DNA from: Zhihengliuella halotolerans
Lineage (GTDB): Bacteria > Actinomycetota > Actinomycetes > Actinomycetales > Micrococcaceae
Length of the DNA stretch: 64,000 nucleotides
Direction: 5' to 3'
Assembly: GCF_004217565.1 (NCBI RefSeq)
Contig: NZ_SHLA01000001.1
Coordinates: 124,001 to 188,000 of the forward strand
Shown here piece after piece: positions 11,925 to 44,581 of the stretch (position 1 is the stretch's first letter; each line of letters starts with the position of its first letter). Below the pieces are notes generated by a model that was given only the letters and a program-made list of their open reading frames with translations, was not told the DNA's origin and ran no database searches. The position numbers and the translations under genes were made by a program.

Positions 11925-11972
11925 GATTTTGTTGTGTTCCCTTCACGGGCAGGTACGTGCCCGACGATCCGT

Positions 11973-11988
11973 TGTGATAGGTGTCACA
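11973..11988. promoter_or_regulatory. CRP/GlxR-like site upstream of msiK
   Basis: TGTGA-TAGGTG-TCACA matches the TGTGA-N6-TCACA consensus at all ten fixed positions and extends to TTGTGA/TCACAA. It lies 49 bases upstream of the msiK start and touches the otsB stop codon. A cAMP-responsive CRP-family protein is the probable ligand. That protein is not encoded in this window. Confidence 0.7.
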
Positions 11989-12769
11989 AGGTTCTCACAG
12001 AAGCGAGCAGATTCAAAAACTCCGTCACATCCTCCAGTGAGCCGACCCGGAACGCGGCACTCGTTTCGCCGTCTCCGACCTTGACTCCCAGATCGCCCGG
12101 GCGAAGGGTCGAAAACGCGTGCTCATCAGTCACGTCGTCGCCGGCGAAGACCACGGTTCCGGCTCCGCTGACGCTCCGGAGCCAGTCGAGACCGACCCCC
12201 TTGTCGACCCGGACGACGGCCGCCTCGAGCACGGCCTTGCCTTCCGTCACATGAACGTCACGTTCGCCGGCCAGCGCCGTGCGCGCCCGTGCGAGTGCGG
12301 CCTCGCCGTCAGCGGGTGAACACTGCCGAACATGCAGGACGACGCCGGACGGCTTGTGTTCCAGCCGCGCCCCGGCGAACGCCTCGGAGACGCCGCGCAG
12401 GGCCGCGGTGACCTCGGCCAGCAGCGCCTCCTGGGCGCCCGACAGGGTGAGCGGTTCGTCGCCCGTCTCCGGGCTGTACCGTTCGGCGCCGTGGCTGCCG
12501 ACCAGGAGGACTTCTTCCGGCGGGGACGCGACCAGGCGCAGGCTCTCCAGATGGCGCCCGGAGAGCAGCGCCGTCGTCGTGCGCGGTCCGGAGCCGGGGG
12601 CGTCGCCCCCACCGAGCCGGGCGAGCGCCTCCGCCGAGCCCGGCAGCGCGCGGGCGTCTTCGGGGCGACCGACGAACGGGGCGAGCGTCCCGTCGAAGTC
12701 GAGGGCGACGAGCAGGTGGTCGACCTCGGCGAGGGCCTCGGTGGCGGTACGAAGTTCCGGGGGTAGCAT
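11984..12769 (-). CDS. otsB: Trehalose-6-phosphate phosphatase
   Basis: OtsB removes the phosphate of trehalose 6-phosphate to give trehalose, an osmolyte and stress protectant. The 261-residue protein is a HAD-superfamily phosphatase. The nucleophile motif DFDGTLAPF lies at about residues 24-32, and the C-terminal metal-binding motif GDDVTDEHAF is present. It follows otsA on the same strand after only 9 bases, so the pair forms an otsAB operon. The stop codon overlaps the CRP-like site that probably serves msiK. Confidence 0.93.
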   Translation of the reverse strand: MLPPELRTATEALAEVDHLLVALDFDGTLAPFVGRPEDARALPGSAEALARLGGGDAPGSGPRTTTALLSGRHLESLRLVASPPEEVLLVGSHGAERYSPETGDEPLTLSGAQEALLAEVTAALRGVSEAFAGARLEHKPSGVVLHVRQCSPADGEAALARARTALAGERDVHVTEGKAVLEAAVVRVDKGVGLDWLRSVSGAGTVVFAGDDVTDEHAFSTLRPGDLGVKVGDGETSAAFRVGSLEDVTEFLNLLASVRTL

Positions 12770-41217: not shown

Positions 41218-41423
41218 GCTGGCTCCTGCGGTAGGTGATCGCCGTTCGAGGCCGGTCACGGCCGATTGATATGCGCGCGCGACCTCAGAAGGAGGCGGAA
41301 CGCGCTGCTTCTATGTTCACCCAGCGCGAGGTCCAAACCGGAACCCGGGAAGGATTGTTAACGCGGGGTAGAGTTGGGCCCAGCTGTAAGACACCCTTCG
41401 AATGCCGTCCGGGAGCCACCTAC

Positions 41424-42119
41424 GTGACCGACCTGATTGATACAACAGAGATGTACTTGAGGACCATTCTGGAACTCGAGGAGGAGCGGATCACCGCTCT
41501 GCGCGCACGCATCGCGGAGCGGTTGGGGCACTCCGGCCCGACCGTGTCTCAGACCGTCGCGCGCATGGAGCGCGACGGCCTCCTCGTCGTCTCCAAAGAC
41601 CGCCACCTCGAGCTGACGGGCGCCGGGCGCCAGCTGGCGACCGAGGTCATGCGCAAGCACCGGTTGGCGGAACGGCTGCTCTCCGACGTCATCGGGCTCG
41701 AGTGGGAGTACGTGCACGACGAGGCCTGCCGCTGGGAGCACGTCATGAGCGAGCGGGTCGAGCGTCGGCTCTACGAACTGCTGGGCCAGCCCTCCGAATC
41801 GCCCTACGGGAACCCGATCCCCGGTCTGGACGCGTTGGGCGGGCCGGTCGGCGCTGACTTCGGCCGCGGCGTGCAGAACCTCGAGGATGCCTTGACGGGC
41901 GGGGAAGCCGGGCCCGTCAAGGTCCTGCGACTGGCGGAGACCATCCAGGTCGACCCGGTGCTGCTGGGTCAGCTGAACGAGGGCGGAATCCGGCCGGGCG
42001 CCACGGTCACGCTCGAGCGCGCGGGGGACTACGTCGTCGTGCGCGTGGAGGGCGTCGAAGGGGCCCTCGAGCTGCCCGCCGAGGTCAGCACCCACGTTTT
42101 CGTGGAGCACAGCGAATAA
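41424..42119 (+). CDS. DtxR/IdeR-type iron-dependent repressor
   Basis: This 231-residue metalloregulator represses iron uptake genes when Fe2+ is bound. The N-terminal helix-turn-helix (GHSGPTVSQTVARMERDGL), the dimerisation domain and a C-terminal SH3-like domain are all present. Metal ligands fall at the same numbers as in DtxR: His79, Glu83 and His98 for the ancillary site, and Cys102, Glu105 and His106 for the primary site (DEACRWEHVMS). This numbering supports the GTG at 41424 as the true start, with GGGAG upstream. The longer frame from 41235 is not needed. The c-di-AMP riboswitch of the next gene starts soon after. Confidence 0.94.
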   Translation: MTDLIDTTEMYLRTILELEEERITALRARIAERLGHSGPTVSQTVARMERDGLLVVSKDRHLELTGAGRQLATEVMRKHRLAERLLSDVIGLEWEYVHDEACRWEHVMSERVERRLYELLGQPSESPYGNPIPGLDALGGPVGADFGRGVQNLEDALTGGEAGPVKVLRLAETIQVDPVLLGQLNEGGIRPGATVTLERAGDYVVVRVEGVEGALELPAEVSTHVFVEHSE

Positions 42120-42141: not shown

Positions 42142-42184
42142 AACGATAACGGAATTGTAACTTTGTAGCGTCTCCGTTATCGTT
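42142..42184. other. 12-bp inverted repeat around the first riboswitch promoter
   Basis: AACGATAACGGA (42142-42153) and its exact complement TCCGTTATCGTT (42173-42184) flank 19 bases containing the likely -35 box and overlap the -10 box. It may be an operator for the M23 gene, or a weak terminator for dtxR. Confidence 0.55.
42155..42182 (+). promoter_or_regulatory. Candidate promoter of the first c-di-AMP riboswitch
   Basis: TTGTAA (42155-42160) and TTATCG (42177-42182) with 16-base spacing. The -10 region is followed by TTGATAAC. The second riboswitch has an aligned promoter sharing ATCGTTGA, which supports this assignment. Confidence 0.5.
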
Positions 42185-42229
42185 GATAACAGCTGGGACT
42201 AGTCCCTGCCACCGGATCCCGAGTTCGCC

Positions 42230-42432
42230 GAGCTCTGCCGTCGGGATCCGTCGAACCGAACACTTTCGGCAGAGGCGGGGGAACCATACTTTCGCGGGAG
42301 CGAAGCGCACGGGTCAGACCTGTGCCGCGCGCCCTTGGGGTGAAGCCAGTCAATCTCCACGTTGGGGGAATGGCGGCCGGATGCATCTCACATCCGAATC
42401 CGACAGCTAACTTCGCAGGCTCTCTGAGAGGT
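42230..42432 (+). promoter_or_regulatory. c-di-AMP (ydaO/yuaA-type) riboswitch, M23 peptidase gene
   Basis: The leader shows the landmarks of this class: GGCAGAGGCGGGGGAACC, then CCTTGGGGTGAAGCCAGTC, then CCGAATCCGACAGCTAAC and CTTCGCAGGC. A P1-like pairing CTCTGCCG/CGGCAGAG closes the 5' part, preceded by a 10-bp hairpin at 42213-42250. It ends at the GAGAGG ribosome-binding site of the M23 gene. Cyclic di-AMP binding would be expected to turn the gene down. Confidence 0.93.
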
Positions 42433-42438
42433 AAACGA

Positions 42439-43398
42439 TTGACTGAGAACATGTCCAACGGACGCGAGCCGGCGTCCGGCGGCAGCGCCGCGCACGACGC
42501 GCCGCTCCGTCGTCCCCGCGGCGCCGAGCGCCGCAGCCTGCAGGTCGGTGCGGCCCCGCACGAGCGCGCCACGACCGCAGGCCCCGCCCAGATCGGCCGC
42601 CGCTTCAAGGCCGGCCTGCGCTACACCGGCGTCGAAACCGCCCAGCTCGACGAGTTGGCCGCCCAGGCCGAGGCCTCCGCGCCCGCCGCCGCTGCACCCG
42701 TCGTCGACCTGCACGAGCGCCGTCTTGCGCGTCCGCAGCGCCGGACCAGAATCGCCGCCAGCCACAAGTTCGCCGCCGCGGCGGCCGTCTCCGGCCTCGC
42801 GTTGACCGCGGCTTGGCCCCAGCTGAACGATCCCGGCACGGAAGCGCGCGCCAAGGCGGAGGCCCAGGCCACGGTTGAGGACGTCGTCGTGCCCGCCGCA
42901 GACGACTTCGACATCGAGCTGGCCTCCGTGCAGGGGGCTGTCAGCGAAGAGAACGCACTGGACCAGGTGATGACGGCTGCGGCCGGAGACATCACCAAGG
43001 TGGAGACCGCCGGCGTGCTCGCGCAGCCGCTCGACACGGTTCGCATCACGTCCCGCTTCGGCTACCGGGCGAACCCGTGGGGCGGCGCCGGCATGGTCAA
43101 CCACATCGGACAGGACTACGGCATCGCCTGCGGCACCCCGGTGAAGGCCGCTGCCGCCGGAACGGTCGTCCAGGCCGAGTACGCCGGGCACTCGGGCAAC
43201 CGCGTGCGCGTCGACCACGGCAACGGCCTCGAGACGACCTACAACCACAACACGTCGTTGAAGGTCGCCGTTGGCGACAAGATCGAGCGCGGCGATGTCG
43301 TCTCCCTGAGTGGGACGACCGGCAACTCGACTGGATGCCACCTGCACTTCGAGGTCCTCGTCGACGGCACGGCCGTCGATCCGGCCGGTTGGTTGTAG
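42439..43398 (+). CDS. M23-family peptidoglycan endopeptidase
   Basis: This 319-residue predicted exported zinc peptidase cuts peptide cross-links in the cell wall. The N-terminal half is basic and Ala-rich, with a hydrophobic export/anchor segment near FAAAAAVSGLALTAAWP (about residues 111-127). The C-terminal LytM domain has the zinc ligands H-x3-D in HIGQDYG (His222, Asp226) and HLH in CHLHFEV (about 301-303). I chose TTG at 42439: GAGAGG sits 7 bases upstream, exactly as at the TTG of the next gene. The frame is open from 42322, inside the riboswitch, so upstream starts are unlikely. c-di-AMP control links wall cleavage to turgor. Confidence 0.9.
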   Translation: MTENMSNGREPASGGSAAHDAPLRRPRGAERRSLQVGAAPHERATTAGPAQIGRRFKAGLRYTGVETAQLDELAAQAEASAPAAAAPVVDLHERRLARPQRRTRIAASHKFAAAAAVSGLALTAAWPQLNDPGTEARAKAEAQATVEDVVVPAADDFDIELASVQGAVSEENALDQVMTAAAGDITKVETAGVLAQPLDTVRITSRFGYRANPWGGAGMVNHIGQDYGIACGTPVKAAAAGTVVQAEYAGHSGNRVRVDHGNGLETTYNHNTSLKVAVGDKIERGDVVSLSGTTGNSTGCHLHFEVLVDGTAVDPAGWL

Positions 43399-43443
43399 TT
43401 TCAAACTGGCGAGACCAGAAAAATATCTTTCCGTGACCTTAAC

Positions 43444-43470
43444 GTGACATTCGGTTCGGATTCGTATATC
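43444..43470 (+). promoter_or_regulatory. Candidate promoter of the second c-di-AMP riboswitch
   Basis: GTGACA (43444-43449) and TATATC (43465-43470), 15-base spacing, followed by GTTGA. It aligns with the promoter at 42155, including the shared ATCGTTGA, although the spacing differs by one base. Confidence 0.5.
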
Positions 43471-43525
43471 GTTGACGACGTGCTGGACCCCGTATGGGTC
43501 CAACACCCTCGGACGGAGTGTTCAA

Positions 43526-43714
43526 CACTGCCGCCGACCGAGGCCCGTTCGTTACAAACACGCTTGGCAGTGGCGGGGGAACCAAATACAGGATCCAAGA
43601 GGTCTTGAGGGCAACCAGCCCTTGGGGTTAAGCGATCGAAGCAGAATCTGCTCCGGCCGCCGGGTGACTCCCACTCGAACCCGACAGCTCACCTCGTAGA
43701 CATAGGGAGAGGTA
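43526..43714 (+). promoter_or_regulatory. c-di-AMP (ydaO/yuaA-type) riboswitch, NlpC/P60 gene
   Basis: The same class landmarks occur in the same order: GGCAGTGGCGGGGGAACC, CCCTTGGGGTTAAGC, GGGTGACTCCCACTCGAACC and CGACAGCTCACCTCGTAG. P1-like arms CACTGCC/GGCAGTG are present, with an upstream hairpin GGACCC/GGGTCC at 43484-43500. The aptamer again ends at GGGAGAGG just before a TTG start. Confidence 0.93.
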
Positions 43715-43720
43715 AAACTT

Positions 43721-44581
43721 TTGTCCAAGCGCCATGCACTCGGTCGCCACCGCGCGACTCCTGTCCGTAGCAACCCGCTCGAGGGCGTCTCGAAGGCCGT
43801 TGCCTCGAACGCCGGCTCCGTCGGCCGCCAGGCCGCCGTCATCGCCGCAGCCTCCGGCCTCGTCCTGACGATGGGCGTCCCGGCACAGGCCAACCCGGTG
43901 GCCCGTGAAGCCGCCAGCGCCCCGGTTGAGGCCCTGCCGGTCGAGCGCACCGCCGTCGCCGCGGTGACCGTTTCGGCCAAGGCCGTCGAGGACTACGAGG
44001 TCGAGCGAGTCGTCCTCGAAGCAACCCCGGCTCCCGAGCCCGAGCCCGTCGTCGTGGCTGTTGCCGAACAGGTCGAGACCCAGACCGATGAGGTCGAGGA
44101 CGAGGCGCAGTACGCCGCCATGACCCGCGAGAACGTCAACAACGGCGGCGGCGCCGCAGCGGCCCAGGCCGCTCCTGCTGCCGAGGCTGCTCCGGAGCCC
44201 GAGCCCGTCGTCGAGGCTGCAGCCTCCGGTACCGGCGCTTCGATCGCCTCCATGGCCGCCGGATACAAGGGCACCCCCTACGTCTGGGGCGGCAGCTCGC
44301 CGTCCGGTTGGGACTGCTCCGGCTTCGTGCAGTGGATCTACGCGCAGCACGGAATCAACGTCGCCCGCGGCACGTCCAACATCCTCGCTTCGGGCCAGTT
44401 CGTTCGCACCTCCTCCCCGAAGCTGGGCGACCTCGTCTTCCAGAACGGCGGCGGCCACGTCGGCATCTACATCGGCAACGGCCAGATCATCGGCGCCCAG
44501 AACCCCTCGGTCGGCACCGTGATCCGCCCTGCCAACAGCCCGTACGGCCCTCTCTACGGGTACTACACGCTGGCTGGCTAA
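43721..44581 (+). CDS. NlpC/P60 peptidoglycan endopeptidase
   Basis: This 286-residue exported cysteine peptidase cleaves D-Glu to diamino-acid bonds in stem peptides. An N-terminal segment with a hydrophobic export signal (about residues 30-57) is followed by a long Ala/Glu/Pro-rich linker and a C-terminal NlpC/P60 domain. Catalytic Cys is at about residue 199 in SGWDCSGFVQW and catalytic His at about 246 in GGHVGIYIGNG. The start is TTG at 43721, with GGGAGAGG 8 bases upstream. A second, separate c-di-AMP riboswitch precedes it, so it shares control with the M23 gene but is transcribed on its own. A strong terminator follows. Confidence 0.93.
   Translation: MSKRHALGRHRATPVRSNPLEGVSKAVASNAGSVGRQAAVIAAASGLVLTMGVPAQANPVAREAASAPVEALPVERTAVAAVTVSAKAVEDYEVERVVLEATPAPEPEPVVVAVAEQVETQTDEVEDEAQYAAMTRENVNNGGGAAAAQAAPAAEAAPEPEPVVEAAASGTGASIASMAAGYKGTPYVWGGSSPSGWDCSGFVQWIYAQHGINVARGTSNILASGQFVRTSSPKLGDLVFQNGGGHVGIYIGNGQIIGAQNPSVGTVIRPANSPYGPLYGYYTLAG

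Follow-up and report, generated by a model that had tools for sequence, protein, structure and literature searches.

The window, by which we mean the whole 64,000-nucleotide stretch of Zhihengliuella halotolerans DNA that was analysed, contains a place where two genes for cell-wall hydrolases follow one another on the + strand, each with its own predicted c-di-AMP riboswitch. A first, sequence-only reading had placed two ydaO-type aptamers 1.3 kb apart, one before an M23 and the other before an NlpC/P60 endopeptidase gene, had named a covariance-model search as the check, and had suggested that separate switches give the two enzymes different ligand set points. The locus raises the question of why neighbouring genes carry the same kind of switch twice, and whether the two switches are tuned separately or serve joint control.

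Adjacent M23 and NlpC/P60 genes each follow a c-di-AMP aptamer

An Rfam scan of the whole window, and likewise of a short stretch, returned RF00379 matches at both sites, full length (model positions 1–134 of 134) and above the gathering score of 38. Aptamer 1 occupies 42244..42435 (+ strand; 60.8 bits, E = 1.3e-11) in the M23 leader and aptamer 2 occupies 43545..43716 (+ strand; 52.2 bits, E = 3e-9) in the NlpC/P60 leader. Their starts lie 1301 nt apart, and the span first assigned to the pair (42230–43714) opens 14 nt 5' of aptamer 1 and stops 2 nt before the end of aptamer 2. Directly downstream are found an M23 (LytM-type) peptidase gene with a TTG start and an N-terminal hydrophobic segment (42439..43398, +), whose product matches Peptidase_M23 (PF01551) over residues 221–315 with 97.3 bits (cut-off 28.7), and an NlpC/P60 endopeptidase gene, also with a TTG start (43721..44581, +), whose product matches NLPC_P60 (PF00877) over residues 184–274 with 79.0 bits (cut-off 23). 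The covariance-model search thus bore out the proposed pair, its spacing and its assignment to the two genes. Residues H222, D226, H301 and H303 of the M23 protein, which we take to be the zinc ligands of the domain, are invariant in 26 of 26 alignment rows, and relatives by sequence in the PDB include 3slu for M23 and 8er5 for NlpC/P60. Belonging to two peptidase families, the enzymes would cut different wall bonds. The upstream neighbour, a gene for a DtxR-family metal-dependent regulator recognised by domain and synteny (41235..42119, +, ORF start approximate; Fe_dep_repr_C, 103.6 bits), is a member of the conserved neighbourhood and lies outside the switch.

The near-identity of the aptamer ends, also pointed out in the sequence-only reading together with the TTG starts, is exact for GAGAGGTAAA, the common tail found at 42426–42435 and 43707–43716, and the TTG codons follow the end of GAGAGG by 7 nt (M23) and 8 nt (NlpC/P60). 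The core motif of RF00379, CAGCUAAC, is present in aptamer 1; aptamer 2 carries CAGCUCAC instead, as other NlpC-class aptamers do, and the position is variable outside the family too. A tandem riboswitch within a single leader was ruled out, since the M23 gene (42439–43398) sits between the aptamers. The pair accounts for all RF00379 matches in the genome (count of two in 3,583,060 bases searched), a DAC (c-di-AMP cyclase) domain was detected in the same genome by profile search (91.6 bits), and both aptamers are predicted to bind c-di-AMP. Elsewhere in the window an msiK RNA motif (RF01747, 65.6 bits) is located at 11931–11989 on the − strand.

The pair is kept in many Micrococcaceae

RF00379 matches were found in 119 of 149 genomes of the family, representing 25 of 31 genera, and in 49 of 246 genomes of the phylum. 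Within the genus (five genomes, this one included), four have two matches on one strand with starts 1278–1324 nt apart, and the fifth (G004) has one; a stretch of the same-genus genome G003 is identical to Zhihengliuella salsuginis NZ_BMXK01000010.1. Among the phylum matches listed, same-strand pairs less than 2 kb apart occurred only in the genome under study (G000), in one of the same family (G013) and in one of the same order (G280), the last of these pairs preceding two Rpf-like genes (by motif) and no M23 and NlpC pair.

For the family, 39 loci were taken non-randomly, most of the first 20 having been picked for two neighbouring matches and the remainder so as to include further genera; together with the window they make 40 loci holding 66 aptamers, and 21 aptamers from outside the family bring the total to 87. 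At least two aptamers are present in 25 of the 40 loci of this selected set, from 13 genera, and in these 25 the M23 gene comes first in 24 and second in one (L044). Gene classes for the repeat, loop-permutation, duplex-energy, tree and outside-family counts given below were assigned by short motifs. Of the family proteins still lacking a label, profile matches then assigned 12 to NLPC_P60 and one to M23 and left five without a family, and these amended classes (27 M23, 34 NlpC, five without class) underlie the pseudoknot-run and core-base counts. Peptidase_M23 was matched by all 26 proteins of the M23 alignment, and NLPC_P60 by 34 of the 40 proteins of the other alignment (E ≤ 0.001), with two just under the Pfam cut-off of 23 (21.4 and 22.1). 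SerC, DtxR, M23, NlpC and HNH are all five present in 22 of 39 loci (tblastn), some of the other loci being cut by the 6-kb stretch. Furthermore, when 20 of 80 named M23 relatives were checked, 13 had at least two aptamers around the gene (Zhihengliuella, Arthrobacter, Paeniglutamicibacter, Paenarthrobacter and Psychromicrobium), one had one and six had none (four of them Brevibacterium); at least two of the 13 are genomes already in the family set.

One locus (L045, 3194–4527; G011, identical over 4 kb to Arthrobacter sp. CAU 1506, L116) carries three aptamers, with an M23 gene followed by two NlpC/P60 genes.

Aptamers have also been lost. In G004 (L043), no RF00379 match precedes the M23 gene even at E ≤ 10, and the region upstream of that gene retains GAGAGG and the MtrA-like repeat described below, as ATAACGAAATTGTAACT; in four further loci (L061, L068, L070 and L079), an M23 gene without its own aptamer precedes a switched NlpC gene. 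Promoter element and aptamer are thus separable in loss, and G004, with the promoter element retained and one aptamer lost, offers a natural comparison within the genus.

Two aptamer lineages and the question of set points

In a tree of 48 aptamers, grouping follows the gene and not the genome: 21 of 22 NlpC rows fall in one group (100/99), the M23 rows form no single clade, and 2 changes suffice for the gene label, compared with a mean of 16 after shuffling. The bootstrap of this tree is unsettled (rough), and the tree has long branches. As the aptamers group by gene across genera, the pair is old, and a recent local duplication of one aptamer was ruled out on the same ground.

Such old, separate lineages would suit a reading in which the affinities of the aptamers differ and the hydrolases switch at different c-di-AMP levels. 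In the same direction point the core base after CAGCU, which in the family is A in all 27 M23 aptamers and C or U in all 34 NlpC aptamers, and the pseudoknot strands described below, which differ between the classes and, in 11 of the 15 pairs compared, are predicted to form the stronger duplex in the NlpC aptamer. However, plain inheritance by gene gives the same pattern, and the core position can be A, C or G outside the family; it is A beside CAGCU in T. tengcongensis-type aptamers, judging from the sequence quoted in PMC5393176. The count of 11 in 15 is not significant and comes from a comparison that leaves out 10 further pairs whose second gene was unlabelled as NlpC by the motif rule, and in the window the duplexes differ by 0.6 kcal/mol (−9.6 for NlpC, −9.0 for M23); a class difference in pseudoknot strength was rejected as support for distinct set points. 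The core base leaves room for tuning, with which it is compatible, and equally for inheritance. We regard separate tuning as a tentative and rather doubtful explanation.

The ribosome-binding site as a strand of the predicted pseudoknot

In aptamer 1, the apical loop strand UCUCA (42386..42390, +) is complementary to the 3' strand UGAGA (42425..42429, +), which overlaps the ribosome-binding site GAGAGG (42426–42431). In aptamer 2, the loop strand CUCCC (43668..43672, +) is likewise complementary to GGGAG (43705..43709, +), overlapping GAGAGG at 43707–43712. At least four Watson-Crick loop-tail pairs overlapping the ribosome site were found in 64 of the 66 family aptamers, a few of the best runs being probably chance alternatives. 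The strands co-vary, reading CUCCC/GGGAG in the NlpC leaders of the family, CUCUC or UCUCA with GAGAG or UGAGA in its M23 leaders, and CCUUCC/GGAAGG or CCUGAC/GUCAGG outside it. Because the tails were left unaligned by MAFFT in an alignment of the 3' parts of 64 of the 66 aptamers (the two rows of L041 were omitted as near-copies of the window), duplex and run-length tests were used in place of pair counting. The mean duplex energy of the 87 aptamers was −10.59, compared with −8.80 when the loops were reshuffled (sd 0.21; lowest of 300, −9.42), and for the 21 aptamers outside the family it was −11.15, compared with −8.58 (sd 0.53; lowest of 500, −10.26). Permutation of the loops within each class had a small effect on run length (4.33 versus 4.16; sd 0.05, highest of 300, 4.32). 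A pseudoknot exists in the solved T. tengcongensis-type ydaO construct, as described in PMC5393176, and by our own reading of the sequence quoted there its strands would be loop CUCCUUCG and tail CGAAGGAG.

The presence of the ribosome site within the 3' strand of the pseudoknot, together with the compensatory changes, favours translational shut-off, as reported for the nlpC riboswitch of C. glutamicum, which PMC9960051 describes as an OFF switch, probably translational, that lowers protein and not transcript. Both switches of the window would probably work in the OFF direction and at the level of translation. Control by transcription elongation, through attenuation or Rho, would follow the example of S. 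coelicolor rpfA, for which a review reports premature termination (PMC10117811), and the level of control may for that reason differ here; another paper presents rpfA control as probably acting on translation initiation (PMC8079986). Against elongation control, a simple scan of the window, with Rho or pausing beyond its reach, found nothing terminator-like from the aptamer to the start codon in either leader, and a terminator was rejected as the expression platform on this basis. Moreover, the ribosome site doubles as a strand of the pseudoknot, the start codon lies at most 9 nt past the aptamer in 64 of 66 genes (by our own ORF rule), and the C. glutamicum nlpC transcript is reported as unchanged where protein is reduced (PMC9960051). 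We consider control by elongation unlikely.

A direct repeat occupies the −35 position of both predicted promoters

Upstream of aptamer 1, a direct repeat with an 11-bp period, ATAACG-n5-GTAACT (42146..42162, +), has its second half at −35, and a −10-like TATCGT (42178..42183, +) lies 15 nt past the second half-site hexamer, with a presumed transcription start near 42190; this TATCGT at 42178–42183 is absent from the list of the sigma-70 scan. Upstream of aptamer 2, GTGACC-n5-GTGACA (43433..43449, +), with the same period, provides in its second half the −35 hexamer of a promoter-like site, GTGACA-17-TATCGT (43444..43472, +; 1 found versus 0.2 expected), from which transcription would start near 43479. 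Each repeat fits the pattern of its own leader class with 0 mismatches. The earlier view of two separate switches gains support in spirit from these elements, one of which stands before each aptamer; both look like one type of stress-response promoter element.

Across the family, the direct repeat [AG]TNAC with an 11-bp period was found within 200 nt upstream of 53 of the 66 aptamers (0.54 expected from mononucleotide shuffles), the other 13 having none within that distance. Each other period from 7 to 19 occurred at 6 or fewer of the 66, and among 1083 background 200-nt stretches from the same loci the repeat appeared in 3 on the same strand and in 5 on the other. Its consensus is ATAACGRAATTGTAACT in M23 leaders and GTGACCNNNACGTGACA in NlpC leaders. 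A TAnnnT hexamer follows 15–17 nt past the second half-site in 49 of the 53 cases (8.0 expected), so the second half-site occupies the −35 place. Outside the family the repeat was present at 6 of 21 aptamers, four of them in the same order and two elsewhere and far upstream, and at 0 of 8 in G270 and G339. Searched against the genome, the M23 repeat pattern has a single match at up to 3 mismatches, and the NlpC pattern has one match with 0 mismatches and, at 2 or fewer, six more versus four for a reversed control.

Several OmpR-type regulators bind similar repeats, and GlnR/PhoP-type regulators use 11-bp-spaced repeats of similar sequence; the repeat could be the site of such a regulator (e.g. 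GlnR or PhoP) and not of MtrA. Besides an MtrA orthologue, the genome has 23 other, weaker hits to the MtrA model (E ≤ 0.001). Against another regulator, that orthologue is present (NF040689, 388 bits versus a cut-off of 300). Furthermore, both halves of the repeat read RTNAC, as in the published MtrA pattern: the repeat fits the site given for Streptomyces, GtnAcC-n5-GTnAcn (PMC13189361), and that given for C. glutamicum, a pair of 8-bp repeats separated by a 3-bp linker (PMC3353115). The target genes also match the C. glutamicum MtrA list, which includes mepA, mepB, nlpC and rpf2 (PMC3353115). As judged from these likenesses, MtrA is most likely the protein at both repeats, and another OmpR-type regulator is a rather improbable occupant. 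MtrA would activate rather than repress both genes; since MtrA of C. glutamicum is reported to repress nlpC (PMC9960051), the sign here may be the opposite of the activation proposed.

A single polycistronic transcript, in which aptamer 2 is just an internal translational switch, would suit the common strand, the 146 nt from the M23 stop to aptamer 2 and the fact that the M23 gene ends with no more than a weak terminator-like site (43370–43387; 3 found versus 2.2 expected in the region), but the promoter-like site and conserved repeat ahead of aptamer 2 make it quite improbable, with read-through from the M23 gene into aptamer 2 possible as a minor route.

A perfect 12-nt inverted repeat, AACGATAACGGA ... 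TCCGTTATCGTT (42142–42184), extends across the first half-site and the −10 of the M23 promoter and is possibly a further operator. Hairpin-forming repeats lie between promoter and aptamer in both leaders, GGATCCCGA/TCGGGATCC at 42214–42249, overlapping the 5' end of aptamer 1, and TGGACCC/GGGTCCA at 43484–43502, before aptamer 2.

A proposed two-gene module and its relation to known systems

We propose that the locus is a conserved two-gene wall-remodelling module of the Micrococcaceae, in which each gene has an MtrA promoter and a translational c-di-AMP OFF switch, a reading to which we assign a probability of about 0.72. Its direct basis is formed by the aptamers, the genes, the kept pair and its neighbours, the spacing of repeat and −10, and the loop-tail complementarity over the ribosome site. 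The M23 and NlpC/P60 genes would be separate transcription units, each with a ydaO-type aptamer that ends on the ribosome-binding site and, further upstream, a promoter that has an OmpR-type direct repeat as its −35 region; MtrA is the most likely protein to bind this repeat. At high c-di-AMP, the aptamer would fold and its apical loop would pair with the Shine-Dalgarno-containing tail, turning off translation of both hydrolases; at low c-di-AMP, the ribosome site would be free and both would be made, provided that MtrA permits transcription. The wall would then be opened only when the signals from the MtrAB system and from the c-di-AMP pool coincide. One transcriptional input and one ligand appear common to both genes, a point that favours joint control no less than separate tuning, and the architecture suggests co-regulation of the two genes. 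More speculatively, the arrangement could be a two-key autolysis lock written twice in a row, on M23 and NlpC/P60 genes otherwise unlinked, with an MtrA-dependent promoter and a riboswitch that has the ribosome site as a pseudoknot strand, whose distinct aptamer lineages could release the enzymes in a set order as c-di-AMP falls.

The closest counterpart is the nlpC leader of C. glutamicum, in which, according to PMC9960051, an aptamer likewise precedes an NlpC/P60 peptidase gene, an MtrA site lies in the promoter region, no canonical terminator is present, and the ribosome site is complementary to a loop segment, proposed there as CTCC/GGAG. In that organism, however, the one peptidase gene under a switch is the first of a seven-gene operon, and the genome's other aptamer precedes rpf1 (PMC9960051), whereas in the window the M23 and NlpC genes adjoin, a promoter-like repeat and an aptamer stand before each of them, and a comparison of 87 aptamers backs the loop-tail pairing. 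The C. glutamicum MtrA regulon similarly comprises M23-type and NlpC peptidase genes (mepA, mepB, nlpC) and an 11-bp-period repeat (PMC3353115); here the repeat lies at the −35 position, and the role of MtrA is deduced from the sequence. Streptomyces ydaO leaders, of rpfA and others, share the aptamer family and the cell-wall hydrolase targets (PMC10117811, PMC8079986), but the six leaders listed for S. lividans lie far apart on the chromosome (PMC8079986). Tandem c-di-AMP riboswitch doublets also bring two aptamers close together, but are described as standing in series in one leader, mostly with a terminator between them (PMC9481103), whereas those of the window are separated by an entire gene and precede one gene each. 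Searches of the open-access literature turned up nothing on an M23–NlpC gene pair with two aptamers or on ydaO leaders of Arthrobacter; either may be mentioned in subscription papers, the founding ydaO papers among them.

The riboswitch class, the kind of target (actinobacterial wall hydrolases) and the likely transcription factor are already known, and with such known parts the surprise is moderate. What is added is the conserved doubled architecture and, from sequence comparison, the covariation evidence for the ribosome site as a pseudoknot strand. MtrAB and c-di-AMP, inputs studied apart, would be linked on one pair of wall-cutting enzymes across many genera, and a covariation-backed mechanism would be provided for an OFF switch on which papers differ as to the level at which it acts in Actinobacteria.

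Two minor features concern the genes themselves. The start codons of the 66 aptamer-led genes (L040–L079 and the window) are TTG in 33, GTG in 26 (59 of 66 together) and ATG in 7, as counted by a first-start rule, and such weak starts may help tight shut-off. Residues 1–12 of both hydrolase classes follow a common pattern near MSxxxxxGR(H/R)RA, accompanied by an SGL-type hydrophobic stretch, which is perhaps a common export signal.
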